Source of the DNA: Polystyrenella longa
GTDB taxonomy: Bacteria; Planctomycetota; Planctomycetia; Planctomycetales; Planctomycetaceae
Assembly: GCF_007750395.1 (NCBI RefSeq)
Contig: NZ_CP036281.1
Coordinates: 2,193,001-2,257,000, forward strand
Direction: 5' to 3'
Length of the DNA stretch: 64,000 bases
Shown: positions 14,790 through 64,000 of the stretch, one piece after another
Numbering within the stretch: the stretch's first letter is position 1
Layout of the letters: each line of letters starts with the position of its first letter
Notes under the pieces: generated by a model
The model's input: only the letters and a program-made list of their open reading frames with translations
What the model was told of the DNA's origin: nothing
Database searches by the model: none
Program-made: the position numbers and the translations under genes

Positions 14790-16481
14790 TCAGTTTTGTA
14801 CACGACCGAAAGTCATCAAAGTAATATCGTCATTTTGTGGTCGTCCGTTGGCGTGGGTCCGGACGTCTTTCAGGATTGTTTGGGCAAGGCTTACTGGCTC
14901 TGCTGAAGATGTCAGAATGGTTTCCTTGAGCCGTTCAATGCCGTAGAGTTCGTTATTAGCGTTCATCGCCTCGCTGACACCGTCTGTATAAATAACGAAG
15001 ACTTCACCTGGTTCCAGTTTGCGGGTGACGACTTCGTATTCAAAGTCTTCCAGTACGCCGATGGGAATTCCGACTTCACTTTCGCCCAGCTCTTCGAGAA
15101 CACCGTCAGGTTTCTTGATCAGAGGTGGCATATGGCCCGCGTTGGCGAGCGACAGGGTGTTTTTCTTAGTATCGATCACCAGGAGGACAAAGGTGACAAA
15201 ACGCCCTTCTACAGCGTTGCTGCACATCAGGTTATTGATCCGCTTGATCGCTTTGCGTACATCTTCAACGAATCCCATCGTAGATTCGACGACACTCGAA
15301 ATTCGGGACATCACCAACGATGCAGGAACACCCTTACCGGCAACGTCGCCGAAGGCTAAGCAAATCTTCGTGGGCGAGAGCCGGATGGCATCATAGTAAT
15401 CGCCACCGACTGCCTGGGCTGAATCGTACGACGCGTAAAATTCATAACCGTTGATTTCGGGGAAGGACTTTGGCAGAAGGGCATGCTGGACATTACGGGC
15501 AATATCCATTTCCCGGTCCTGACGCTTCTTCTCCATATAACTGACCATTAAGGTCGCGTTTTCATAAGAGAGCGCTGCCTGAGCGGCGACGACGTTCAGG
15601 AGATCGAGGTCTTCTCCTTTGAAACGATGGAGCGGATTCTGAGTATCGATGCTGATCACGCCTTGGGGGTTCCCTTGCAGATCGAGCATGGGGACACACA
15701 TCATCGACCTGATCGTCAGATCGGAAATCGAGGCGGACGATTCGAAGCGAGAATCACTGGAGGCGTCTGCGGAGAGAATTCCCGCTTTTTCTTCCAGAAC
15801 TTTGTTTAAGATTGTTTTACTGAGTCGGACGGCTTCGTCATCTTTTCCACGTCGAGTTTTATACGCGCGAGGAAACATTTGAGCGGTTTGTTTGTCTTTA
15901 AGAAGAATGCAACCGCGGTCGGCATTGGGAAAGACTTCAAACAAAACATCCAGAATCTTCGGTAGAAGAACTTCGAGATCGACGGTTCCGGCCAGAGCGC
16001 GACTAATCTCGATGATGCCTCGCAGTTTTTCTTCTGGCTGGGAATCAAAATCGATATAGGTGCCGGAGTTTTCGACCGTATCCATGATGGTCGGTTGCTC
16101 GGCATCGTCAGGAGTGAAATCGAAATCGATTGACAGCAAAGTGCCGTCCGGAACTGACGAGAGTAACGGAATCGGAGCTGTTTTGTTCATGGCCTGAGTG
16201 GAGTCGAAACGAAACAGAATTGGTCCGATTTTGACTCGGTCTTCATTCTTGATCGCGGTCGGTTGATTGACCCGCTGCCCATTGATGAAGGTACCGTTCC
16301 CACTACCCAGATCCTCGATGAACACCTGACCGCCATTTGTGTAAACGCGAGCATGCCGACGGGAAACCATGTCGGAATTGAGAAAGATATCGCATTCCGG
16401 ATGACGTCCGATGGTCAATTCGTCCCGAGAGAGCTCGTATGGAACGGCCTTACCGCCTTCCAGGAGCGTCAGCTTGTTCAT
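14790..16481 (-). CDS. FHA-GAF-SpoIIE-type protein phosphatase
   Basis: 563 residues with three domains. FHA at about 20-95 ([25 protein letters not shown]) binds phosphothreonine. GAF at about 165-310 (hydrophobic strands ending GVISIDTQN) senses a small molecule or makes dimers. A SpoIIE/RsbU-like PP2C phosphatase fills about 345-560 ([31 protein letters not shown]). Such proteins dephosphorylate anti-anti-sigma (STAS) factors or other phosphoproteins. No membrane segment. No STAS partner is adjacent; the nearest SpoIIAA-like protein is at 31970. The start is ATG at 16481. Confidence 0.93.
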
Positions 16482-45403: not shown

Positions 45404-45418
45404 CGGTACGTTAATTGC
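45404..45418 (+). promoter_or_regulatory. Weak sigma-54-like promoter upstream of the lipid kinase gene
   Basis: Reads CGGTACGTTAATTGC: GG and GC ten bases apart, ACG and TTGC intact, two changes in the -24 half. Predicted start of transcription would be near 45430, about 85 bases before the kinase ATG. Confidence 0.4.
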
Positions 45419-45515
45419 ATCCTGCTTACTGTGTTGGCAATATGACCTGTCTTGCTTAATCAAATGAGTTATCTGCTGCCAGAAGGGATTCTGGAAGCTT
45501 TTCGGATGAATTGAA

Positions 45516-46445
45516 ATGGACGATCAGCGATCAAAAAAAATCAAACGAATCTTCTTTGTGGTGAATAACAAGGCCGGGAATGCGGATGAGCAGGAATTGC
45601 GCGATCTCGTTGAAGACAAAATGACTAGCCAGGGAATTCAGTGTGAGTACTTTGTTCGAGAAGCCAAAGGGCAGAGTCGTCGCAAAGCGACACGAAAGGC
45701 GTTGGACGATGGATTTCAAGTGGTTATCGCTGTTGGGGGCGACGGGACCGTTTCGAAGGTAGCTGATGAACTGCAAGGTTCAGATGCGGAACTGGGGGTT
45801 GTACCCAATGGATCGGCGAATCTAATCGCGCGGGGATTACAGCTTCCCTTGGATATCGGGGAATCTCTCGACGTGATCAATGAGAGAGTAAATAAGAGAT
45901 GGTTAGATGGAATGCGGGTTGGTAAGAAAACTTATTTCTCCCATATCAGTCTTGGTGTTTATTCCCAGATAACTAAACGGGAAAACAAAGCTCACAAGAA
46001 AGTGATCGGCAAACTCGCTTATTTGTGGCCGTTGCTGAAAGAAATACGCCAACACCGCGCGTGGAAGTTCAAGATCGAAGCCCCCGAAATCAAAGAGACT
46101 CTCTCCGCCTCGTTGGTGATGGTGGCTAACGTGGGGAATTCTGGTTTTGGCGAAATGAAATGGGGAGAAGGGATCGAACCGGATGATGAGCATCTTGATC
46201 TGTGTCTGATTCGTGGTCGTGGTATCGGAGCGTATACAGAACTTGTTTGGAAAGCGATGCGAAAACATCCCGAAGAAACGAGCCATATCGATTTTTATAA
46301 AATCGGATCGAGTATCCGAATTAGTGCCGATTCCAATTTACCCGTTCGAGCGGACGGAGGCCTCATTGGGGAACATGATGTGGAAATAAAAGTAGTGAAA
46401 CGCGCAGTTCCGGTTATCGTTCCAGCAGTGGAAAAGGCCCAATAA
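45516..46445 (+). CDS. Diacylglycerol-kinase-family lipid kinase (YegS/DgkB-like)
   Basis: 309 residues. The N-terminal domain has the nucleotide motif VGGDGTVSKVA (about residues 70-80) after NNKAGN, and VPNGSANLIARGL follows; these define the DAGK catalytic fold. The C-terminal beta domain contains ANVGNSGFGEM. Such proteins phosphorylate diacylglycerol or a related lipid at the inner membrane face. Single gene after a terminator. Confidence 0.93.
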   Translation: MDDQRSKKIKRIFFVVNNKAGNADEQELRDLVEDKMTSQGIQCEYFVREAKGQSRRKATRKALDDGFQVVIAVGGDGTVSKVADELQGSDAELGVVPNGSANLIARGLQLPLDIGESLDVINERVNKRWLDGMRVGKKTYFSHISLGVYSQITKRENKAHKKVIGKLAYLWPLLKEIRQHRAWKFKIEAPEIKETLSASLVMVANVGNSGFGEMKWGEGIEPDDEHLDLCLIRGRGIGAYTELVWKAMRKHPEETSHIDFYKIGSSIRISADSNLPVRADGGLIGEHDVEIKVVKRAVPVIVPAVEKAQ

Positions 46446-53288: not shown

Positions 53289-53732
53289 TTAGCGACGAAG
53301 TGCAAGGCTGACGATTACGCCAGCGATAAGGCCAGTACCAAACGCGACTGCTACAGATTCCGTAGGATGTTTGCGAACAGTTTCTTCAGCCTGTTGGTAG
53401 CCTTGTTGAATGGAATCGTTCATGCGATCCATTTGCTGACGTGCAGCTTGCGATGCCTGGTTCAGGTGCTCTTGTGCATTCTGAACAGTTTGTCCCAGCT
53501 TCTCGGTAGTGCTGGCTGCTGAATTGCAAACCGTTTCCAAGAGGTGATTCAGCTCTGCTTCGATCTTCTGGCTGGTTTCACCTGTCTTTTGTTGAATCTT
53601 TCCGACAATCTGGTCTTTACGACCTTCAAGATTGTCGAGATCACTTGAAGTTAACTGGCTCCAATGTTCCTCGATACGACCTCGAAGTTCGTTCCAGTTA
53701 CCCTTCATTTTGAGTTCTTGTGAAGTAGTCAT
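53289..53732 (-). CDS. CsbD-DUF883 fusion protein
   Basis: 147 residues. The N-terminal 55 residues are a CsbD domain (MKGNWNELRGRIEEHWSQLT, GRKDQIVGKIQQ). The C-terminal half is a long amphipathic helix (ETVCNSAASTTEKLGQTVQ) ending in HPTESVAVAFGTGLIAGVIV, a YqjD-type anchor. CsbD is a small stress protein of unknown function controlled by sigma-B in Bacillus. The gene is first after a good sigma-54 promoter. Confidence 0.88.
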   Translation of the reverse strand: MTTSQELKMKGNWNELRGRIEEHWSQLTSSDLDNLEGRKDQIVGKIQQKTGETSQKIEAELNHLLETVCNSAASTTEKLGQTVQNAQEHLNQASQAARQQMDRMNDSIQQGYQQAEETVRKHPTESVAVAFGTGLIAGVIVSLALRR

Positions 53733-54106
53733 TTAGTGCTCCCTTGGTTTTCCTGTAGGGGGTTATGTTCGGTTACTCTTACAACGAGTGGTAGAAGCAA
53801 TTGCAAGTGGTATGCCAGAATGGGTAAAGCAATTATTTAGTTTGCTATCAGAAAGGGGTTCGCTGACTTAAGGTGATGTGAAATAACAAGATATGTGTAT
53901 TGGATAGCTAGGCGTCCACTGAGGGAGGTCGGGATAATCACTCGAGAAAGCATGATCGCGCACACGTCACCTTGGCTTCAGTTCAACCGAATATTGCGTT
54001 GATTGAAAATATAACGGCGACCGTATAGAACCGTTCTTTGGTGGGAGCGGCGCGCAATTTGAGCGTAGATATGTGTCGCCTGACGATGTCCGTGATGTAG
54101 TACGGA
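53733..54106. other. Intergenic region with a sigma-54 promoter
   Basis: Contains the minus-strand sigma-54 promoter at 53802-53817. A small stem (TCCGT/ACGGA) follows the stop of the phosphodiesterase gene but has no T-run. No gene seen. Confidence 0.55.
53802..53817 (-). promoter_or_regulatory. Sigma-54 promoter of the CsbD-DUF883 operon
   Basis: On the minus strand: TGGCATACCACTTGCA. GG and GC are ten bases apart, TTGCA is a perfect -12 element, and TGGCA is intact at -24 (T and A for C and G in the last two places). Expected start of transcription near 53791, about 60 bases before the CsbD-DUF883 ATG. Confidence 0.78.
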
Positions 54107-55648
54107 TCAGTTAGCGCGGGCGCTATCGAAAGATTCGCAGCGGGGCTGGATACCGAGAATCTGGAGTGCGAGGGGGGAGACATCGACAATCCGAGGAAAG
54201 TCCGGAAGTTTGAAATCCTTCGGAAGCCCTGCTGCGAATAAGGGAGACGTGGAGTCGATTTTATGGAGGGAACCGTGCGAACCGGCGGCGTTAGTGTGGA
54301 GACCGGGAATGGCGAATTCCTTCCCGAGGCGGGCTGTCACCCACAAGTTGCCCGTTTGATCGCAGATCCCATTTGCAATTCGCTCCAGTGCGTTGGGGTA
54401 ATCGCCGAATCGCAGAACATTATCCTCATCCAGCGTCCCGTCAATCGTGGCCAAATCTCCCTGGAAAGCCCAACGGTTGCCTAACTCGTCGACCCCATCT
54501 GTATCGCCATTCCAAGCTTGCTTGAAGACGAGCGTGCCCCTGTCTCTGGTGTAGATATGAAACGTGGCCTCGTCGCAATCGCTGAGCCCGTTTTCAAAAT
54601 CACTCCAGATCACTTGATCAACTCCAGGGCATTCGAGTAGAGCTTCGATGACTTCTGAGCGATTCTCCCAGCGTTCTGGACGCATGTAGATTTGGGCGGC
54701 CCGCATATTGGGGCAGATCATCAGGTCTTCCCCGTTCTGCCATTCGGCTCCAGCATCGACGACTTGGAACTGTTCCAACGTTGCGTTCAGGTCAACCCGA
54801 GCGTCCTCGTCCAGATTGCTCTGCGAGTGATCACCAGTGACCATGATGACGTGGTCTTCAAGAAACTTATCGATTCCCCCCTGCTCCTCAAATAGAGTTC
54901 CTAACGTGATCGCGACCTTCTGGAGCGTATGAACCGCATTTTCGGGACCGACCTCGTGGCTATCGAAATCGTTATTGGGAAAATAAGCGAGTGTGAAATC
55001 GGGCATTGATCCCGAGCGGGAAAGTGAGAGCAGGTAGTCACTCGTCGCGTCGTCATGGAATCCAAACCGACGGGATACCCCACCGCGAGCAGTCGGAGTT
55101 TGGTTATCCTCAAGCGGGCTGGAGACAAAGTCGCCCAGGAACATCTTGTGTGGTCCCATCATTTCTGAAGCGAAATTAGAACCCGGAATGAATTTCATCA
55201 GGAAAGGTGTCGACGCAGAGTGAGGCACAGTTCCCTTGTACCACATGAAATTCACAACGGCGTCCTGCAGTTTTCCATTCTTTTCGATCTGTTCGAAGAT
55301 TGTAGGATACTGCAGACGTTCGCCATTTAAGCGAAGTTGGAAATCACGGATGTAATGGTCAATGCCTTCTTTAAAGATCGCTGGGAGATCGGCCCCAAAG
55401 TAGGCAATTTCATCCTGTTTGGGATCGTACCAGTAGGCGCCTGCTATCCCGTGGTCAACTGGGTAGGCGCCCGTGACCAGCGAGCAAGTGGCAGCTGGAG
55501 TGATCGAAGGGAAAATTGAAATACAGCTCGGCGAGTAAGCCCCTTTATCGCGTAGTTGTTGAAAGACCGGGAGTTTGCCAGCCTTCATCGCTGGCTCGAC
55601 GACGTGTGTCGAAAGAGCATCGATGATAATTAAAACAACCTTTTTCAT
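54107..55648 (-). CDS. Alkaline-phosphatase-superfamily phosphodiesterase
   Basis: 513 residues, cytoplasmic by the lack of a signal peptide. Motifs of the nucleotide pyrophosphatase/phosphodiesterase group: VLIIIDAL at the start (metal Asp), the nucleophile Thr in SITPAATCSLVTG, NNDFDSHEVG and VTGDHSQ for the second metal site. Substrate unknown. A 55-residue loop between the last motif and the C-terminus contains the charged FENGLSDCDEATFHIYTRD. Stand-alone. Confidence 0.9.
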   Translation of the reverse strand: MKKVVLIIIDALSTHVVEPAMKAGKLPVFQQLRDKGAYSPSCISIFPSITPAATCSLVTGAYPVDHGIAGAYWYDPKQDEIAYFGADLPAIFKEGIDHYIRDFQLRLNGERLQYPTIFEQIEKNGKLQDAVVNFMWYKGTVPHSASTPFLMKFIPGSNFASEMMGPHKMFLGDFVSSPLEDNQTPTARGGVSRRFGFHDDATSDYLLSLSRSGSMPDFTLAYFPNNDFDSHEVGPENAVHTLQKVAITLGTLFEEQGGIDKFLEDHVIMVTGDHSQSNLDEDARVDLNATLEQFQVVDAGAEWQNGEDLMICPNMRAAQIYMRPERWENRSEVIEALLECPGVDQVIWSDFENGLSDCDEATFHIYTRDRGTLVFKQAWNGDTDGVDELGNRWAFQGDLATIDGTLDEDNVLRFGDYPNALERIANGICDQTGNLWVTARLGKEFAIPGLHTNAAGSHGSLHKIDSTSPLFAAGLPKDFKLPDFPRIVDVSPLALQILGIQPRCESFDSARAN

Positions 55649-55841
55649 TGTGCTGATCTTTTCCGGGAAATCGACTCGTTAATCCACTGGTCAAGAAAAT
55701 GGAAACGATAGGTTCCGTATCTGCAGAGCGAGATTCGTTATTCTGAAAATGGGATCCCCGCAAGCCGGGAGGAAGTCCTTTTTCGAACGGAGTCTATCTA
55801 AATTTCTATTCTACCGACCTCCTTGTAATCCATCATAGTAA

Positions 55842-55878
55842 AACGCTGCAAAATGTCTAATCAACATCTTGCAGCGTT
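55842..55878 (-). terminator. Terminator of the PRC/CsbD operon
   Basis: Stem AACGCTGCAA(A)ATGT with ACAT(C)TTGCAGCGTT, 15 bp with one mismatch and a 7-base loop. On the minus strand it ends in TTTT. It lies 60 bases after the PRC-barrel stop. Confidence 0.8.
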
Positions 55879-55937
55879 CGAATTAAAATCAAGTTGTCAG
55901 CTCAGCAGAAACGGATCGTCTTTAAGGGAGTCTTGGA

Positions 55938-56489
55938 TTAGTCTCGATCTCGCTTAACTCGGACTTTGCCATCTTTGACTTTGACGCCATCTTTAACTTT
56001 GACGTCGACATTGTAACGTTTGTTCAAGTCGCGTTGGAAGTCTTCATCTTCGAATGAAGGCCAATGGTCTTCGTCAAATCCTTCGGCACCTTCAAGTTGC
56101 TTCTGAGTGACGTTCAGAACAAGAATACATTCTTCTGGATCGTCTTCCTCGTGGGTAATTTCAAAGGCCTGGTAAGGGACGGCAAAGAGTTTATCGCCGA
56201 CACCTAAAAACCCACCATAAGTTACGGCAGCATAGCGAATCTCGCCGGTGTTTGTATCCATGACAATGTCGTGAATCTCGCCCACGCTCTCGTTTTCTTT
56301 GTTGACGATGTTCTTACCCATCAGTTGGCTCACTCGGAATGTGGGATGCTTGGCATCTTTCACTGCTGGCTTGTTGACGGTGACAGCGGTTTCACCTTCG
56401 TTTTGGTCTTTAGCCTGTCCGTCGGTAGCGAATGAAAGTCCGGCGACCAAGGCGAGGCAGAGGCTTAGCTTCGTGATGTTGGATAGCAT
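55938..56489 (-). CDS. Exported PRC-barrel protein
   Basis: 183 residues from the ATG at 56489, chosen for AAGGACT upstream; the frame is open to 56513. A signal peptide (LCLALVAGLSFATDGQA) leads to a PRC-barrel domain (about 48-120: RVSQLMGKNIVNKENESVGEIHDIV, then GDKLFAVPYQAFEI). The end is highly basic/acidic with a repeated VKVKDG. PRC-barrel proteins in other stress clusters are small surface or periplasmic proteins of unclear role. Last gene of the operon. Confidence 0.88.
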   Translation of the reverse strand: MLSNITKLSLCLALVAGLSFATDGQAKDQNEGETAVTVNKPAVKDAKHPTFRVSQLMGKNIVNKENESVGEIHDIVMDTNTGEIRYAAVTYGGFLGVGDKLFAVPYQAFEITHEEDDPEECILVLNVTQKQLEGAEGFDEDHWPSFEDEDFQRDLNKRYNVDVKVKDGVKVKDGKVRVKRDRD

Positions 56490-56621
56490 AATTGAGTCCT
56501 TTTGGTTTAACAATTTTTTAGCTGAGAAAGCGAATCTTGAATTACGTGTGATCCTATTAAAGATTCACTCTTCGTATTTATGAGGCTCGAACTGAGACCA
56601 GATATTGTGGATCATTTCGCA

Positions 56622-56825
56622 CTAGCATTTACAGGAGCTTTCGAATTCGTCGATCTGACGTTCGGCTTCATCTTTGGCGATACCATATCGCTCCTGGATC
56701 TTGCCGGCCAGTTGTTCTCTTTTGCCGTCGATCTGGTCGAGTTCGTCATCGGTGAGTTTGCCCCACTTCTCACGAGCTTGGCCTTTCAACTGCATCCATT
56801 TTCCTTTAATTTGGTCTTCATTCAT
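56622..56825 (-). CDS. CsbD family stress protein
   Basis: 67 residues, the usual size for CsbD: MNEDQIKGKWMQLKGQAREKWG and then a D-E-L-D-Q-I-DGKREQL segment. The C-terminal SSCKC has two cysteines, unusual for the family. Cytoplasmic. Part of the PRC operon. Confidence 0.93.
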   Translation of the reverse strand: MNEDQIKGKWMQLKGQAREKWGKLTDDELDQIDGKREQLAGKIQERYGIAKDEAERQIDEFESSCKC

Positions 56826-56917
56826 CGTTTTTCTCCGTAAAGAAAAGTACTCAGATCTGTTTGGAAAAGGTCGGTTCTGGAGATGCTGAGAAAGCCGGAA
56901 CGCGACCTGAAATTTAC

Positions 56918-57103
56918 TTAATTATCAGTTTCAATATCGATCTCACCCGTATCTGGGTCTTGCTCGATTGTGGTTTCGCTGTCCGGCGTTTCGATCTCCA
57001 TGATCTCTTTGTCGTCGTCGCAACCGGTCAGGATATCGGGAGCCGCAAACATCATGGGTACGGCGAGACTCATCGCAGTGATTCGTTTGTAGATAGATTT
57101 CAT
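56918..57103 (-). CDS. Small lipoprotein
   Basis: 61 residues. A basic start (MKSIYKRI), a hydrophobic core and a lipobox ILTGC at about residues 24-28, then a strongly acidic tail rich in Asp/Glu/Thr. No family recognised; entericidin-like small lipoproteins are common beside CsbD genes. It lies between the two-PRC gene and CsbD in one operon. Confidence 0.7.
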   Translation of the reverse strand: MKSIYKRITAMSLAVPMMFAAPDILTGCDDDKEIMEIETPDSETTIEQDPDTGEIDIETDN

Positions 57104-57195
57104 CGTGTTCTTCTTTCCCCTAAGTTGTTGTCAGGAATGCCCGGCTATCTTGTTCCTGGTGGAATTGTGTTGATGTGCCGAGCACTGTCGTCAAG

Positions 57196-57948
57196 TTATT
57201 CATACAGGCTATAGGTGCCTGCTTTTGACCAATAAGTAGGTCGACCGTAATAGTCGTAGACTTTTGTTTCATACTCGCGATTAATTGGACTGCGAGGATT
57301 GTAAATCGGAGCGTCTTTGACTTGTTCACGTGACAGATCAATGGAAGCGGATTGCTCTTCCCAGCAAATGTCTGATAGCCAATCAATTCCAATGATGACT
57401 TTCTTTCCTGGTAGCCATACGCCAGTGTCGATCGTCAGATAACGCAAGGTCCACGTATCTGTGTCAACGATGAGTTCTTCTACATGGCCCAAGTCACCCT
57501 CATTGCATTTGATTGTGTAACCACGGATCTCTTTGAGACTTCTTAAATGCATGTCGTGTGATTCCCCCGCTTCAACTTCGGATTCATCGAATGATAAACG
57601 GTGTGAGAGTTGTTCAGGGATATGGCTCCAGAACATGGGCCAGTCGAAATAATCTGCAAGATCCGACTGGGATTGCTTGGATACAGGTGGATTCGATTCT
57701 ATTGCAGGGGCATCCTCAATGGCGTGCTTCGAGAGAATAGTAGAAATAGTGAAGGCCTCATGATCCGGTTCTTCGAATGCAACTGGTGATAGAAGTACCT
57801 CTTCTCGATTAAGCCAACCTCCACAGTTTACGACGAAGTAACGAATCATTTTGTTCTCGTCGTCAAACAGCAGGTCTGTAATGGTGCCGAAGTCTCCGTC
57901 GATCGCTTTTAATTTATATCCGGGCAGTATGTTGCAACTGATAAGCAT
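57196..57948 (-). CDS. Cytoplasmic double PRC-barrel protein
   Basis: 250 residues with two PRC-barrel domains: about 9-85 (GYKLKAIDGDFGTITDLLFD) and about 138-215 (GYTIKCNEGDLGHVEELIVD), joined by a charged linker. There is no signal peptide, so it differs from the exported PRC protein at the other end of the operon. First gene of the operon, with a sigma-54 promoter about 40 bases upstream. The ribosome site is AAAGGAAAAGAA. Confidence 0.88.
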   Translation of the reverse strand: MLISCNILPGYKLKAIDGDFGTITDLLFDDENKMIRYFVVNCGGWLNREEVLLSPVAFEEPDHEAFTISTILSKHAIEDAPAIESNPPVSKQSQSDLADYFDWPMFWSHIPEQLSHRLSFDESEVEAGESHDMHLRSLKEIRGYTIKCNEGDLGHVEELIVDTDTWTLRYLTIDTGVWLPGKKVIIGIDWLSDICWEEQSASIDLSREQVKDAPIYNPRSPINREYETKVYDYYGRPTYWSKAGTYSLYE

Positions 57949-58634
57949 GTTTCTTTTCCTTTCCCTTGGTGGAACATGATAAAGTAAAGCAGTTCGTGTG
58001 CCAAAAACTGAAGACCGTGTGAGGATCCCGGGGTTTGCCTACCATCCCGGAAAGTAAACGGCACTGCTATTTAAGATTGATATCACGATTTCTGTGGTCT
58101 GGTTTTGGTTCGCTAAACGTGATCAATGAATCTTGGGAGAGGTAATTCGGTGAGTGAGAAAACAGCGAGCTACGGGTGCTAAAGCTCCAAGGTGAATGAT
58201 CGTCAACCAGAGAATGTTCAGCAATATTGGGTTTGATGGCTGTATTCAGAGGTTCGTAGCGAATAAATAGATGAGCTGTAGTTCACGATCTAGAGATTAC
58301 AAGGAGCTAAACTCGATCATATTGACGAGATTTTATATTAGCCGTCCAATCTTGAGACGCTTTTCCGGACAACCAGTTCTAATCTGTTTATTATTGTTAC
58401 AACTGGGGTTACAATGATTATTGCGGCACGAAAAAAATAGGAATTCTAGCCGCACCAAACCTTGGGACCCACGAAGGCTCCCTGCGAAGTTTGTCCCCAC
58501 GGCTACTCAACTATTCAGGGGCTTCCCCAGTTGAGTATTTTGTAGCCCTAACTTTAGCTCCTTACGCGCATTCAGATATAGAAGACAGTCCGTCCAAACT
58601 TCTCTGGCGACTTATCCGCAGGAATTTAAAGAGT
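57949..58634. other. Intergenic region between the PRC operon and the sigma-54 activator gene
   Basis: Contains the minus-strand sigma-54 promoter at 57988-58003. Two direct repeats GTTACAA (58396-58402 and 58408-58414) lie upstream of the activator gene. The activator frame is open from 58491 but without a ribosome site. Confidence 0.5.
57988..58003 (-). promoter_or_regulatory. Sigma-54 promoter of the PRC/CsbD operon
   Basis: On the minus strand: TGGCACACGAACTGCT. TGGCAC is perfect, GG and GC are ten bases apart, and the -12 element is CTGCT (consensus TTGC). Expected start near 57977, about 30 bases before the ATG. Confidence 0.8.
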
Positions 58635-60119
58635 ATGCCCAAGTTAATTGTGGTTGATGACGATCGCACGATCCGGGAAATGGTTAGCCGTTCTCTTGAA
58701 AAGATCGACGTGGAAGTAAAGACGGCAGAGTCGTCGGAAGAGTTGTTGTCCATCATTGGGGACTACAAGCCTGACGTGGTCTTGCTGGACATAATGCTCC
58801 CTGGCAGCTCTGGACTGGAAGTCTTCAAACAGATCCGGCAGGTTGATCGCCGGTTACCAGTCGTTTTCATCACATCGTCAAGCGATAGCGAAATGGCGAT
58901 TGAAGCCATGCAACTGGGTGCGTTCGACTATCTGGCTAAACCGCTTGATCTGCCTAAGCTGAATGTGCTGGTAGAAAAAGCGATCGAGACGCAGCGGTTA
59001 ATGAATACTCCCATTGCCCTGCCCCTCGGAGATAATAAACCGAAGTCGGGAGACCAATTCGTCGGTCGCAGCCCTCGAATGCTGGATGTATTCAAATCGA
59101 TTGGACGGGTTGCTTCCGAGAACGTGAACGTCCTGATCCGCGGTGAAAGTGGTACGGGTAAGGAATTGGTGGCTCGCGCAATCTATCAGCATAGCCCACG
59201 TAGCAACGAGTGTTTTATGGCGGTCAATTGCGCCGCCCTTTCAGACACCTTGCTGGAGAGCGAACTTTTCGGGCACGAGAAAGGCTCGTTCACAGGGGCG
59301 GAACGCCAGCGTATTGGTCGATTTGAACAATGTAACGGTGGGACCATTTTCCTCGATGAAGTCGGAGACATGTCACAACTGACACAGGGAAAAGTGCTTC
59401 GTCTCTTGCAGGAACAGAAGTTCGAACGCGTTGGTGGTAATAAAACAATCAATACCGACGTCCGCATTATTGCCGCGACCAACCGAAACCTTGAGAGTAT
59501 GGTAAAAGAAGGGTCGTTTCGTCAGGATTTGTTCTACCGTTTGAATGGAATGACGATCAATCTGCCACCACTCCGTGCACGCGACGGAGATATTTCCATG
59601 CTCGTTGAGCATTATCTCCTCAAAGCTTGCCATGAGATGGGACGCACTGACCTGGAGGGGGTTTCTTCCGAGGCGCTGAAGTTATTTAATAATTATAAAT
59701 GGCCAGGTAACGTTCGTGAATTACAGAGCGTGATTCGACATTCTCTGCTGAATTGCACCAGTCCAGTCATTGTTCCATCCTGTTTGCCGCCGGAATTGTT
59801 CCACGAATCAGTTGATGAAGAGACTGGCTCCCCCACTGAAAACGGTTACTCAGCTAGTAGCGAATCTTCGGACACCTCAGCACCCATTGAAGCAAACCTG
59901 AACAACTTCATAAACACTCGCTTGGGTGCAGGATCGACTGACCTCTACAGTGAAACAGTCGAGATGATGGAGAAATACCTGTTCACACGAGTCCTAAAAG
60001 AAACTGGCGGAAATCAAACCCGTGCGGCCGAAATTCTGGGGATTACTCGCGGTAAAATCCGCGACCGCATCGCCCAGTTCAATATTTCCGTTGATAAGAC
60101 CATCAATATTGAGGACTGA
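58635..60119 (+). CDS. Sigma-54-dependent response regulator (NtrC family)
   Basis: 494 residues from the ATG at 58635 (AGGAA upstream; longer frame to 58491 rejected because the receiver starts at this Met). Receiver domain at 1-120 (VVDDD, phosphoacceptor Asp in VVLLDIMLP, Lys in LAKPLD). AAA+ sigma-54 activator domain at about 145-375: Walker A GESGTGKE (170-177), the sigma-54 contact loop GSFTGA (217-222), Walker B FLDEVGD (about 238-245). The C-terminus (about 450-490) is a Fis-type helix-turn-helix (NQTRAAEILGITRGKI). Phosphorylation should trigger opening of sigma-54 promoters. It is surrounded by four matching promoters; the partner kinase is not certain. Confidence 0.96.
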   Translation: MPKLIVVDDDRTIREMVSRSLEKIDVEVKTAESSEELLSIIGDYKPDVVLLDIMLPGSSGLEVFKQIRQVDRRLPVVFITSSSDSEMAIEAMQLGAFDYLAKPLDLPKLNVLVEKAIETQRLMNTPIALPLGDNKPKSGDQFVGRSPRMLDVFKSIGRVASENVNVLIRGESGTGKELVARAIYQHSPRSNECFMAVNCAALSDTLLESELFGHEKGSFTGAERQRIGRFEQCNGGTIFLDEVGDMSQLTQGKVLRLLQEQKFERVGGNKTINTDVRIIAATNRNLESMVKEGSFRQDLFYRLNGMTINLPPLRARDGDISMLVEHYLLKACHEMGRTDLEGVSSEALKLFNNYKWPGNVRELQSVIRHSLLNCTSPVIVPSCLPPELFHESVDEETGSPTENGYSASSESSDTSAPIEANLNNFINTRLGAGSTDLYSETVEMMEKYLFTRVLKETGGNQTRAAEILGITRGKIRDRIAQFNISVDKTINIED

Positions 60120-60767
60120 GTCGCTCGCTAGATCCTGGCCAGGACAAGTGTGGCGGCTATCGGTCTCGAAAAGACCTTAAAAACAGCAGGCTACGCCGCC
60201 AGAACACGCGACGGTTATCTGGAAAACGCTATAGATTGCGTTGCTTTCAATAATGGTGGATTCTGGCTATGTCTACTTGGTCAATGGATGAAATCCGTTA
60301 ACAGGAACTGTTGGCGTCGAGAATGCATTCTGAGGTCAACGAGGCTCCCTTTCAGGCTGCTGGGAAGGGGATTAATCCCAAATACTCCCCCGTCAGATAC
60401 GTACTATGTCGACGTGAGGCTTTGCTTCTGTCGCTTTGTGCCCCAGAGTTAAAAAGCTCTCTTTTGAAAGTCGTGCAATGACTCGACTTAGAACGATCTG
60501 TGAGCGACCACTTTGAACGGGAGGCTGGTCGGCGACCGATCACTTTTACATCGCCTGTAGGTGACTTCCGAATTGGTTTTCAAATCTGATTTACGCAACA
60601 CGCTTTCCGTTAATGAGTTAGGGGAAATCTCAAGAAATGAATATGGGTTGGCACGCCTATTGCTTTTGATTTGTTCCAGTCAGTAAGTGTTCAACAGAAA
60701 GGTTGGACACACATCTGAAAGATGCTGTCCTCGGCGTCACAACCACAAAACACGGAAGGTTCAAATT
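60120..60767. other. Intergenic region with a sigma-54 promoter
   Basis: Contains the best sigma-54 promoter in the window (60649-60664). A dyad GGTCG-G-CGACC lies near 60528, about 115 bases upstream, at a normal enhancer distance. No gene seen; the GTG-started frame 60150-60452 has no protein-like features. Confidence 0.55.
60649..60664 (+). promoter_or_regulatory. Sigma-54 promoter of the DUF1328 gene
   Basis: Reads TGGCACGCCTATTGCT, a full match to the consensus TGGCACG-N4-TTGC with a W after it. Expected transcription start near 60675, giving a leader of about 93 bases before the ATG at 60768. Confidence 0.92.
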
Positions 60768-60932
60768 ATGTTCAATTTAGCTGTTGCGTTTTTGTTGATC
60801 GCATTAATTGCTGGGTTGTTCGGATTCGGATTAGTAGGCGGGACAGCTTATGCGGCTGCCAAGATCTGCTTCTTTGTATTCCTGGTCCTGGCAGTGATCA
60901 GCCTGACCATGGGAAGACGAACCTTACCTTAA
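60768..60932 (+). CDS. DUF1328 (YtjA-like) small membrane protein
   Basis: 54 residues from the ATG at 60768 (GGAAGG upstream); the frame is open to 60687. Two membrane helices: FNLAVAFLLIALIAGLFGFG and AAKICFFVFLVLAVISLTMG with the Gly-rich turn LVGGTAYA, as in the DUF1328/YtjA family. Such peptides are common in stress clusters with CsbD and YqjD proteins. Function unknown. Confidence 0.93.
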   Translation: MFNLAVAFLLIALIAGLFGFGLVGGTAYAAAKICFFVFLVLAVISLTMGRRTLP

Positions 60933-61046
60933 AATATACAGGTATAAAACAACGACGGGGATTCTCGTCCAGTCTGATCGTCAAACCTTAAACATCTAAG
61001 TCTGAAGATTAAAGAGGAACGTCAAACGATCAGTTTAATTCTTGAT

Positions 61047-61088
61047 AAGAGGGCCGGTGGATTCTGGAGGGGTGTTCACCGGCCTTCT
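61047..61088 (+). terminator. Terminator-like hairpin after the DUF1328 gene
   Basis: A 12-bp stem with a core GGCCGGTG (61052-61059) / CACCGGCC (61077-61084) and a 17-base loop. It is followed only by TTCTG, so it may be a weak or factor-dependent terminator or a regulatory stem between the two genes. Confidence 0.5.
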
Positions 61089-61142
61089 GTCAAGAATGTT
61101 TTTGTTTAGACCTGATTCTGACAGAATCATAAGGGGCAAAGA

Positions 61143-61397
61143 ATGAAACGCTTATTAATACTGGTAATCGTATTACTGCTGGCAGTTATGGTATTTTCAT
61201 ACGCTGATTGGCTTAGCTTTGACAGTGATAGTAAGAGCGCCTCTGTGACGCTCAATACCGAAGAGGTCAAAGAAGATACAAAAGCAGCCTTTGAAAAAGG
61301 AAGTGCGGCAGTTGACAAGGCAGTTGATGAAATCGAAAATGCTCCCGAAGTCGATGTGGATGTTGAAGTCAAAGAGGAGCCTGCGGTAGAGGAATAA
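61143..61397 (+). CDS. Small exported acidic protein
   Basis: 84 residues. An N-terminal membrane helix (RLLILVIVLLLAVMVFSYA) is followed by a very acidic, Val/Glu/Asp-rich tail (about residues 35-84). It may be a single-pass anchor or a signal peptide. No family recognised. Ribosome site AAGGGG. Probably the second gene under the sigma-54 promoter at 60649, though a hairpin lies between. Confidence 0.72.
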   Translation: MKRLLILVIVLLLAVMVFSYADWLSFDSDSKSASVTLNTEEVKEDTKAAFEKGSAAVDKAVDEIENAPEVDVDVEVKEEPAVEE

Positions 61398-61984
61398 CAG
61401 TAAGAAAGATGCCTGAGTAAATCAGGCATAAGGTAGTGTGTTACATATCTGAGGTAGAAGACGAATGTACTACCGAAGATTGGAAGTAGATTGATTTTCA
61501 AAGTGCAGTTTTCATTTCGATCTCTGGTGGGAAGGTTCCATGGCGGCGCTTTCTGAAAATAGCCCTGCGGGGTACCAGTGGAGGTTTACGATGAAAACTG
61601 CACTTTATTTTTTAGAGTGACGGAACGAACGATTTTAGAGTTAAGATTAACATGATAAATCCGTGACCTCCTCCCTTTGGTAAACGGCAATCGATGTTCT
61701 CTTAAGAAAAGGCTTATTCCTCTGGGGTAAAGAATCAGCTCTGGTCGAATCTAGTTTCCAATTTGCCGCCATAACTCCGTTAACTAAATATTTTATGGCG
61801 TGCCCGGGTAAGTTTTCCCTCAATGCAAAGTTGTTCCAGAAATACCGCCTGAAATGCAACTTGATGCGATTGTTATTCCTCCCGGTTAGTGAGTCTGATG
61901 CAGTTAGAGACTCCAGATTCTCCCCAGTATCAGCGAAGTGCGATTACCGAAGGGAAAGCTTTCTGGGGCAGCAAGGTAAACTGA
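61398..61984. other. Intergenic region with hairpins
   Basis: A small stem ATGCCTGA/TCAGGCAT (61409-61429) follows the stop codon, and a long inverted repeat lies at 61500-61606. The rest carries no gene or recognised promoter for the kinase. Confidence 0.5.
61500..61606. repeat. Long-range 16-bp inverted repeat with a 75-base insert
   Basis: AAAGTGCAGTTTTCAT (61500-61515) is the perfect complement of ATGAAAACTGCACTTT (61591-61606). The inner part pairs further, with CTCTGGT against ACCAGTGG. T-rich sequence (TTATTTTTTAG) follows. This could be a structured RNA, an elaborate terminator or a MITE-like relic. Confidence 0.7.
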
Positions 61985-64000
61985 ATGGATAACCTAACTA
62001 GCAACCTAAATTCCCAGCCATCTGGAGATCGATCGTTTTGGGCTGCTGATAGCCGTTTAGAGCGCATTGCTGATTCGGCTATGGATGCAGTTCTAACGGT
62101 GACATTACAGGGCGAGATTATTGATTGGAATCGACAGGCTCAAATCATTTTCGGATGGAGTCGAGAAGAGGCCGTAGGCAGAAATATTGCCGACTTGATC
62201 ATCCCCTCTCATTATCGCGAACACCATGAAGAACGCCTGGCTCGTTTTACGGCTGAACGCCCTGAGAGGGACTGTTCCAAAAGTTATCGCATGCTGGCTG
62301 TTCGGAGGAACGGTCAGGAATTCCCAATTGAATTCACCTTCACGGACTTGGAGTGGTCTGGCCAAACGATTCTCAATATCTTCATCTATGATGTGACAAC
62401 CCATCGCGAGGTAGAACGCCAGGGTGTTCGTGAAAAGCTGGAGACCGCTTTATTACATCATTTGAATCAGACTTCACTTACAAGCGACACTCTCGAAGAG
62501 TCGTTATTGATTGCGATTCCAAATTTGACTGAGAACCTGTCATGGTCGATTGGGCATGCCTGGATTTTCAATGCGGATCGTTCCCGCCTGGTCTCGTCAG
62601 GAATTTGGCATTTTGAAAACTCGACGCAGCATGAAGAATTTAAAGTTTGCACATTAGAAAATACGTTCGAAAAAGGGGAAGGTCTTCCAGGACTTGTTTG
62701 GGAAAAAGAGAAGCCAGTCTGGATTCAGCATTTCGACAAAAACGAACATGTACTCAGAAAATTGCCGCCCGAAGAATCAGATATTAAGACCGCTATTGCC
62801 TTTCCTGTTGTACGTGGGAAAGAAATCGTGGCGGTCGTAGAACTGTTTCGCTCTGGTGAGTTGGCTCCCGATTTAAGTCTCTTGCGGCTTCTCCGTAATA
62901 TCGGAGATCTGATTGGTCACTCAATTGAGCGTATGGACTTACTTGCCGAGAGGATGAGGTTTGCCGCGATCGTCGAATCCTCTGGTGATGCGATCATTGG
63001 CAAAGCTCTGGACGGTACGATTAATTCCTGGAACCAGGGAGCGCAGAAGACTTACGGATGGGAATCAGAAGAAGTCATCGGAAGAACGGTCTCAGTCTTA
63101 TTGCTTCCCGGAATGGCCCATGAAGAATCGGAAATTCTGGAGGCAATGAAAACGGGGCGATTACTCGACCAGTTTCAGACGCGAAGAATGAGAAAGGATG
63201 GCACGATGATTGATGTTTCGATCACTGTGTCTCCAATTAGGGGTGTCGATGGTACCATTTTTGGTACTTCAACAATTGAACGTGACATAACTGCACAGAG
63301 AAACCGTGAGCTGGAACTATTAAAAGCGCGCGACGCGGCAGAACAGGCGAATCGTGTTCGAGGCGAATTTCTTGCGAGCGTAAGTCATGAACTCCGTACT
63401 CCTATGAATGCTATTCTAGGGATGTTGGAACTCTCGCTTCAGGAAGATCTGCCTGAATTCATTCAGGACTATCTGGCAACAGCGAAGGATTCAGCCGACT
63501 CTTTGTTGCTGCTCGTAAATGACATTCTGGATCTTTCTCGTCTGGAGTCTGGTCGGTTTGAATTGGAATCATTGGTTTTTAACGTGCGTGGGTGCCTGGA
63601 CGATGCGATGAAAACATTGTCCCTCAGAGCTCATGAAAAAGGCGTTGAGCTGGTTTGTCACATTCATTCAAACGTTCCGGAATATATGATCGGAGACCCG
63701 ATTCGAATTCGACAGATTATGTTGAACCTGGTTGGGAATGCACTCAAATTTACTCAACAAGGTGAAGTGATGGTTGAGCTCCAATTTGCGGGCGAAGTGA
63801 AAGACGCCGAGTTGGAAAAAATTCGACAGCGGATGGATGAATCAGCTGAAGATGAGTTTGCTAACCCCCCTGCTTCGTTGGTCGATTCCCGATATTATCA
63901 ACTGGAGATGTCCGTAAGTGATACGGGAATCGGAATTGCAGACGAGGACCAGAAACGCATTTTTCAGCCATTCACGCAGGTGGATTCTTCGACGACAAGA
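61985..64000 (+). CDS. PAS-GAF-PAS histidine kinase, 3' partial
   Basis: 672 residues are visible before the window ends. No transmembrane segment is seen, so it looks soluble. Domains: PAS at about 25-145 (DAVLTVTLQGEIIDWN, YDVTTHREVE), GAF at about 155-320 (AIAFPVVRGKEIVAVVEL), a second PAS at about 325-445 (DGTINSWNQGAQKTYGW, ERDITAQRNREL), HisKA with SVSHELRTP (His468) and the start of the HATPase ([20 protein letters not shown]). Receiver domains may follow outside the window. It is a candidate kinase for the sigma-54 activator, by position only. Confidence 0.95.
   Translation, partial: MDNLTSNLNSQPSGDRSFWAADSRLERIADSAMDAVLTVTLQGEIIDWNRQAQIIFGWSREEAVGRNIADLIIPSHYREHHEERLARFTAERPERDCSKSYRMLAVRRNGQEFPIEFTFTDLEWSGQTILNIFIYDVTTHREVERQGVREKLETALLHHLNQTSLTSDTLEESLLIAIPNLTENLSWSIGHAWIFNADRSRLVSSGIWHFENSTQHEEFKVCTLENTFEKGEGLPGLVWEKEKPVWIQHFDKNEHVLRKLPPEESDIKTAIAFPVVRGKEIVAVVELFRSGELAPDLSLLRLLRNIGDLIGHSIERMDLLAERMRFAAIVESSGDAIIGKALDGTINSWNQGAQKTYGWESEEVIGRTVSVLLLPGMAHEESEILEAMKTGRLLDQFQTRRMRKDGTMIDVSITVSPIRGVDGTIFGTSTIERDITAQRNRELELLKARDAAEQANRVRGEFLASVSHELRTPMNAILGMLELSLQEDLPEFIQDYLATAKDSADSLLLLVNDILDLSRLESGRFELESLVFNVRGCLDDAMKTLSLRAHEKGVELVCHIHSNVPEYMIGDPIRIRQIMLNLVGNALKFTQQGEVMVELQFAGEVKDAELEKIRQRMDESAEDEFANPPASLVDSRYYQLEMSVSDTGIGIADEDQKRIFQPFTQVDSSTTR

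Follow-up and report, generated by a model that had tools for sequence, protein, structure and literature searches.

The locus analysed here raises the question of which promoter and which regulator control a small gene for a DUF1328 membrane peptide in Polystyrenella longa. The window, that is, the whole stretch of 64,000 nucleotides under analysis (NZ_CP036281.1, positions 2,193,001 to 2,257,000), carries this gene downstream of a sigma-54 activator gene, and an earlier note had claimed a full-consensus sigma-54 promoter in front of it. The following features bear directly on that claim:

60649-60664 (+): predicted sigma-54 (-24/-12) promoter TGGCACGCCTATTGCT, from its consensus match, rarity and conservation before DUF1328 genes
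60768-60932 (+): DUF1328 (PF07043) membrane peptide of 54 aa, 43.6 bits against a Pfam gathering score of 27
61041-61098 (+): long hairpin with T-rich sequence behind it, from folding; DUF1328 transcription likely ends here

Scored against the sigma-54 consensus TGGCACG-N4-TTGCW, the site agreed at 12 of 12 specified bases with the GG-N10-GC spacing kept, which bears out the full-consensus match on the forward strand. The arrangement described in the earlier note held as well, since 529 bases separate the end of the activator gene (60119) from the site and the 54-residue DUF1328 peptide follows it. The site was the sole exact consensus match in the window, where at most one mismatch was found 3 times vs 0.50 expected from shuffles; the bare core GG-N10-GC was uninformative (426 matches in the window vs 411 expected). 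In the 6,125,480-bp genome, exact sites of the form TGGCACGNNNNTTGC (TGGCACG-N4-TTGC) numbered 4 vs 1 for a reversed-pattern control, and they lie before groEL, before each of two DUF1328 genes and inside a phage-like gene, the labels groEL and phage-like being taken from translations. RpoN is encoded once in the genome (PF04552, 202.9 bits, E 8.8e-60, G000:C1:705054-705527), and we would expect the DUF1328 transcript to start near 60675. A sigma-70 promoter for DUF1328 was considered and rejected, as a simple scan of 60100-61450 gave no sigma-70-type match between 60100 and the gene and a single promoter-like match, at 61312. At the other end of the transcript, the hairpin fold of 61030-61110 reached -40 kcal/mol (z -7.9); the lowest-energy 80-base stretches of the same gap in three relatives, folded without a shuffle control, also form hairpins, and no RNA family reached its gathering score in 55000-64000.

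The promoter recurs before DUF1328 genes across the family Planctomycetaceae. Of 120 family genomes, 54 contained PF07043, in 76 genes, and 74 of these genes from 52 genomes were counted (two, in G061 and G007, were left out). With a site called as a GG/GC core plus at least 10 of 12 consensus matches, 44 of the 74 genes had one within 300 bp upstream in the sense direction vs 1 of 74 antisense; at this distance the downstream control gave 2/72, the far-upstream one 1/72, and shuffles averaged 0.9 of 74. Within 450 bp the count was 56/74 vs 4/74 on the opposite strand, leaving 18 genes that lack a site of at least 10 within that distance. Counted by genus, a site preceded DUF1328 in 20 of 32 vs 1 antisense. 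Twelve genes had the site only at -304 to -436, and because an ORF intervenes before DUF1328 in 11 of the 12, the distant site may head an operon; nine of these 11 ORFs have a lipobox-like stretch, one is of another membrane type and one is a tandem DUF1328. The nine with the lipobox-like stretch are small acidic ORFs, as in G030, G067 and G037.

A weight matrix derived from 22 groEL sites only, applied at a score of 11, recovered 52 of 74 DUF1328 upstream regions vs 5 of 74 antisense (Wilcoxon p 5e-12, the related sequences not being independent). The ribosomal protein S12 gene served as a control, with 30 loci sampled for it as for groEL: none of the 30 had a site of at least 10, and at a threshold of at least 9 there were two sense and four antisense sites. 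Elsewhere in the phylum, among 28 loci outside the family of which one was too short, 6 of 27 DUF1328 upstream regions had a site vs 0 of 27 antisense, and a phylum-wide rule linking sigma-54 to DUF1328 was set aside as weak on these counts. In a further set of 35 loci, a site of at least 10 within 400 bp was found at 7 of 9 planctomycete loci (five of the nine lie on contigs already counted for the family) vs 2 of 26 other loci. In this set the link is thus missing outside planctomycetes.

The genome has only two DUF1328 genes, the second being the match at G000:C1:2269580. That second gene (L042 12565-12729, G000:C1:2269565) has an exact sigma-54 core site at L042 12427-12441 (G000:C1:2269427). 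Its upstream dyad is different, CAACCA-N4-TGGTTG, and is also found before the second copy in G065. The second DUF1328 gene is thus probably served by another activator.

Upstream of the promoter under study, two dyads were found that may be activator sites:

60526-60542 (no strand): proposed activator site 1, TGGTCG-N5-CGATCA, 12/12, from motif enrichment
60494-60510 (no strand): proposed activator site 2, weaker, 10/12, from the motif and relative G065

The earlier note had pointed to a dyad GGTCG-G-CGACC as a possible activator site. That dyad, GGTCGGCGACC, is present at 60527-60537, 111 bases before the start of the promoter, and falls within a 17-bp dyad motif, TGRTCG-N5-CGAYCA, on a slightly different axis; this motif, the better-conserved unit, was seen in front of the promoter both here and in three relatives. 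Site 1 is TGGTCGGCGACCGATCA (TGGTCG-GCGAC-CGATCA) with its centre at 60534, and site 2 is centred at 60502, so that 32 bp, about three helical turns, lie between the dyad centres; the -24 element is 115 bp past the nearer centre and 147 bp past the farther one. The 18-mer from 60493 has a single difference, at the first base, in the same-genus relative G065. The motif was enriched before DUF1328 genes: at 11 or more of 12 it occurred in 19 of 73 DUF1328 upstream regions of 500 bp (one of the 74 had too little upstream DNA), four of the 19 having been used to draw up the motif, vs 1/71 downstream, 0/72 far upstream, 0/30 for S12 and a shuffle mean of 0.3. It was absent at 10 or more of 12 from 37 of the 73 regions.

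Exact copies of the motif numbered 7 in the genome vs 1 for the control, and site 1 was the only one with a sigma-54 site of at least 10/12 within the next 400 bp; lowering the threshold to at least 9 gave 2 of 7. Most of the other exact copies were rejected as enhancers, four of the seven lying inside long coding frames and one overlapping the end of a frame. At L239 (G000:C1:2311074), an exact dyad is followed, 186 bp on, by a sigma-54-like site (9/12) and a frame of about 419 codons, a possible further target. The simple scan of 60100-61450 also flagged 60526-60542 as a terminator-like stem whose T tail is poor (one of 4 such matches in the region vs 1.1 expected), so that the dyad could alternatively terminate transcription, 400 bases beyond the activator gene. 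The proposal of an activator site at this dyad thus gains from the enriched motif around it and is qualified by the terminator-like listing.

We next consider the proteins that may act on these sites, which are encoded on both sides of the DUF1328 gene:

58635-60119 (+): sigma-54 activator of 494 aa, receiver, AAA (GSFTGA) and Fis-type HTH, from Pfam and homologue linkage
61143-61397 (+): small acidic protein of 84 aa, hydrophobic stretch at the N-terminus; 5 of 40 DUF1328 loci have a relative
61985-64000 (+), past the window end (G000:C1:2254985-2258428): hybrid histidine kinase of 1147 aa, PAS-GAF-PAS-HisKA-HATPase-REC-REC-Hpt, from domain search

The activator matched Response_reg, Sigma54_activat (PF00158, 239.6 bits) and HTH_8 (PF02954, 38.6 bits). 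Its loop reads GSFTGA and not GAFTGA, the form found in G065; GxFTGA was absent in 2 of 30 activator homologues viewed, and the HTH stretch TRGK was kept in 29 of the 30. None of 25 listed NCBIfam models (of 117 matched) reached its cut-off for this protein, and assignments to NtrC proper (TIGR01818, 472.5 bits vs a curated cut-off of 558.6) and to ZraR (NF007689, 340 bits vs 760) were rejected.

Gene linkage ties this activator to DUF1328. Taking the closest homologue per genome among the matches listed, at no less than 54% identity, gave a set of 51 genomes; in 21 of these 51, among the matches listed, it lay within 3 kb of DUF1328, and in 30 of 51, with the same scope, within 3 kb of DUF1328, CsbD or DUF2383. 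None of 99 other listed activators (86 + 13 entries), which were lower-ranked or were best in their genome at below 54% identity, lay within 3 kb of DUF1328, and two of 86 lay near CsbD or DUF2383, both of them 58-61% homologues. These counts drew on 137 of 150 listed activator entries and on CsbD entries above the Pfam cut-off, with the remaining 13 activators added for DUF1328 alone. In 30 of the 51 genomes the closest listed activator was not within 3 kb of DUF1328; four of these genomes lack DUF1328, and some are assemblies in several contigs. The two genes stand in varying orientation (tandem, divergent or convergent), and, among the activator matches listed, DUF1328 was present in 47 of 51 genomes with the activator vs 7 of 69 others. 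In a tree of 50 activators, the 35 best homologues formed a clade of their own, with 15 paralogues outside it (100/99); as the 35 were picked by identity, the clade lends weak support. One paralogous activator gene of this genome (G000:C1:5717020-5718435, L318) was marked with one in-frame TAG stop. Autoregulation of the activator by sigma-54 was not favoured, a sense site of at least 10 being found in 1 of 26 activator upstream regions; an opposite-strand site in 8 of the 26 is consistent with divergent target genes (26 of 27 loci were long enough, and three further activator loci were left out).

The hybrid kinase carries HisKA, HATPase_c and Hpt domains. Among 40 loci fetched, a kinase homologue of 38-75% identity, not necessarily the closest, accompanied the activator in 9 of the 12 that hold it, and this kinase is likely, judging from gene neighbourhood, to be the sensor partner of the activator. 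The small acidic protein between DUF1328 and the kinase had no Pfam or NCBIfam match. Between its ORF and the kinase gene, a long imperfect hairpin (61500-61606, z -4.9) with a T run and no Rfam match is likely a terminator.

Upstream of the activator gene, a divergent cluster of stress-type genes was found, and another sigma-54-like site lies beyond it:

57988-58003 (-): sigma-54-like site TGGCACACGAACTGCT, 10/12, 55 bp before the PRC-barrel gene, from consensus scan
57196-57948 (-): first gene of the cluster, for a PRC-barrel protein that Pfam matches in two stretches
56918-57103 (-): small lipoprotein-like ORF of 61 aa, from the ORF list, order kept in relatives
56622-56825 (-): CsbD-family protein of 67 aa, from Pfam
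55938-56489 (-): PRC-barrel protein with an N-terminal signal-like stretch, from Pfam
53802-53817 (-): sigma-54-like site TGGCATACCACTTGCA, 85 bp before a CsbD/DUF883-like gene (53289-53732), from consensus scan

The order PRC-barrel, lipoprotein-like ORF, CsbD, PRC-barrel is kept in G065, G076 and G118, and in these three as well as in this genome a sigma-54-like site (10-11/12) stands 52-57 bp before the first PRC-barrel gene. The ORF at 56918-57103 resembles the small ORFs between promoter and DUF1328 in several relatives.

Similar sites precede further genes in the family. For DUF2383, 15 of 26 genes had a sigma-54 site vs 0 of 26 antisense (of 36 matches, 30 came with loci, and L200 and L203-L205 were dropped as weak or partial, leaving 26 counted), and the 17-bp motif occurred at 10 or more of 12 in 10 of 23 upstream regions (at least 11: 3/23) vs 3 of 30 for S12, 23 of the 26 loci being long enough. 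In this genome, a DUF2383 gene (L042 16476-16949, a PA2169-type four-helix bundle) has a sigma-54-like site 68 bp upstream, at 16408-16423. For CsbD, 5 of 29 genes had a site vs 1 of 29 antisense (30 matches had loci and 29 were counted); CsbD was accordingly rejected as a strong target, and in many cases its gene may sit inside an operon. For groEL, a site of at least 10 was present at 22 of 30 family loci vs 0 of 30 antisense, with none at the six second-type copies (AVAVT) among the 30. The exact site before groEL in this genome is at L043 2881-2895 (-).

Genome-wide, the pattern TGGCAYR-N4-WTGCW gave 16 sites vs 6 for its reversed control, nine of them before frames, including groEL, CsbD/DUF883-like, DUF1328 and DUF2383, and seven inside or antisense to long frames. 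Of the nine, two more presumably encode a protein of RNA-binding type and an SDR with resemblance to a general stress protein. The SDR frame, which we take to resemble general stress protein 39, has its sigma-54-like site 91 bp upstream, at L255 (G000:C1:5329524). Within the window, another sigma-54-like site (45404-45419, +, 10/12) stands 112 bp before a gene (45516-46445) that we assume to be of diacylglycerol-kinase type. Neither groEL nor the SDR gene has the 17-bp motif at 9 or more of 12 within 300 bp upstream, and a single activator for all sigma-54 genes was rejected on this ground. Other activators must therefore serve part of the regulon, because the second DUF1328 dyad differs and groEL and the SDR gene lack the motif.

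Taken together, the promoter reading of 60649-60664 is supported by the presence of RpoN, the family-wide recurrence of the site before DUF1328 and the linked activator. This site forms part of an activator/sigma-54/DUF1328 module that is conserved and that probably includes an enhancer and a sensor kinase of its own. Sequence statistics show the promoter, the enrichment of the motif, the linkage of the genes and the conservation. We consider it quite probable that a kinase/activator/sigma-54 module drives the DUF1328 peptide within a wider stress-type sigma-54 regulon. On this model, 60649-60664 would be the working sigma-54 promoter of the 54-aa membrane peptide. The PAS and GAF domains of the hybrid kinase (61985 onward) would detect a signal, and its receiver/Hpt relay would hand phosphate on to the receiver domain of the neighbouring activator (58635-60119). 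Once phosphorylated, dimers of the activator would occupy the dyads centred at 60502 and 60534 and form an AAA+ ring, which would loop onto sigma-54 polymerase at 60649, where ATP hydrolysis would open the DNA; the short, probably single-gene transcript would end at the hairpin 61041-61098. Across the family, DUF1328, DUF2383, PRC-barrel and some CsbD genes may all depend on this activator clade and on such sigma-54 sites. The steps past the conserved promoter and linked activator are modelled on known NtrC-type systems, and we infer which way the phosphorelay runs, that the activator binds and loops, that the signal is one of stress and that the peptide acts in the membrane.

In the NtrC/glnA layout, a sigma-54 promoter is accompanied by paired upstream activator sites. 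The locus is like it in its -24/-12 promoter, two upstream dyads and receiver-AAA-Fis activator, but differs in that the activator falls under the ntrC cut-off, the dyad reads TGRTCG-N5-CGAYCA and the neighbours are DUF1328, CsbD and PRC-barrel genes.

That sigma-54 controls planctomycete chaperones has been predicted before: the sections drawn on here from Carrera-Reyna et al. (2025; PMC12316311) predict as sigma-54 targets in Planctomycetia the chaperone cluster (DnaK, GroEL-GroES), proteases, MscS channels and UspA, and the groEL site in this genome agrees with them. DUF1328, COG5487, YtjA, CsbD, COG3237 and PRC-barrel are absent from the main text of that paper, and a search by title and start of abstract, covering mostly journals outside subscription, found no link of sigma-54 to DUF1328/UPF0391/ytjA, DUF2383 or CsbD. 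For Rhodopirellula baltica, a common stress response was described (Wecker et al., 2009; PMC2754498); as far as the portions of that study used here go, rpoN mRNA was not regulated by heat and was lowered under high salt (which counts against the proposed module), ECF factors and two-component systems were favoured, and a proposed sigma-54 promoter of a thioredoxin gene was mentioned after Studholme and Dixon (2004). In Salmonella, YtjA is, according to the excerpt cited (PMC5437024), a DUF1328 protein of 53 aa with two predicted membrane segments and is among small genes under tight sigma-S control; the peptide studied here is of the same family, but is predicted to be under sigma-54.

Three other explanations have to be weighed against the proposed module. 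The -24/-12 element might be a chance or relic match that lies idle while DUF1328 is transcribed from a sigma-70 or ECF promoter, and the exact site inside a phage-like gene, one of four in the genome, fits such a view; yet the strand-specific conservation over 20 of 32 genera, the lack of a sigma-70-type match between 60100 and the gene and the operon-head-like position of the far sites (-304 to -436, with an ORF before DUF1328 in 11 of 12) make this highly improbable. It is quite unlikely, too, that the promoter is real while one or more different activators drive DUF1328, the neighbouring activator acting on the divergent PRC-barrel/CsbD genes or elsewhere and the dyad perhaps being its terminator. 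The genome does hold 13 activator-type matches at E 1e-60, of 66 candidates, the second DUF1328 copy has a different dyad, the PRC-barrel promoter has no good copy of the motif (best 9/12) and 60526-60542 is listed as terminator-like. Set against these points are the proximity of DUF1328 to the neighbour group (21/51 within 3 kb vs 0/99 for other listed activators), the motif enrichment upstream and not downstream of DUF1328 genes, and the placement of one of only 7 exact motif copies before this promoter, the sole copy then followed by a site of at least 10/12 within 400 bp.

The last alternative accepts sigma-54 control of DUF1328: sigma-54 would be linked generally to planctomycete membrane and chaperone genes with no stress programme, and DUF1328 would be a housekeeping membrane peptide. 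We regard this as unlikely. The frequency of sigma-54 sites before groEL (22/30) speaks for it, whereas the linked genes are stress-type by family (DUF2383, 15/26 vs 0/26; CsbD, 5/29 vs 1/29; PRC-barrel; groEL), S12 gave 0/30, and the SDR with a sigma-54-like site presumably resembles a general stress protein. The tight sigma-S control of YtjA in Salmonella, as reported in the cited excerpt (PMC5437024), also argues against a housekeeping role.

The promoter recurs alongside DUF1328 in many relatives, together with its probable binding sites and its activator, which suggests that a planctomycete group puts under sigma-54 those stress genes that other bacteria place under other regulators. More tentatively, it is possible that sigma-54 fills much of the sigma-S/sigma-B role in this lineage, with the kinase/activator pair and the 17-bp enhancer switching on DUF1328, DUF2383, PRC-barrel, CsbD and small lipoproteins, and with other activators adding groEL and the SDR. 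A master regulator of general stress in planctomycetes is not established in the parts of the literature consulted on R. baltica (PMC2754498) and on sigma-54 in Planctomycetia (PMC12316311). Now that a complete genome offers one named kinase/activator pair, along with the DNA site it probably uses and the genes it probably targets, the idea becomes testable, and DUF1328, a widespread family of unknown function, gains a regulatory context and partner genes.
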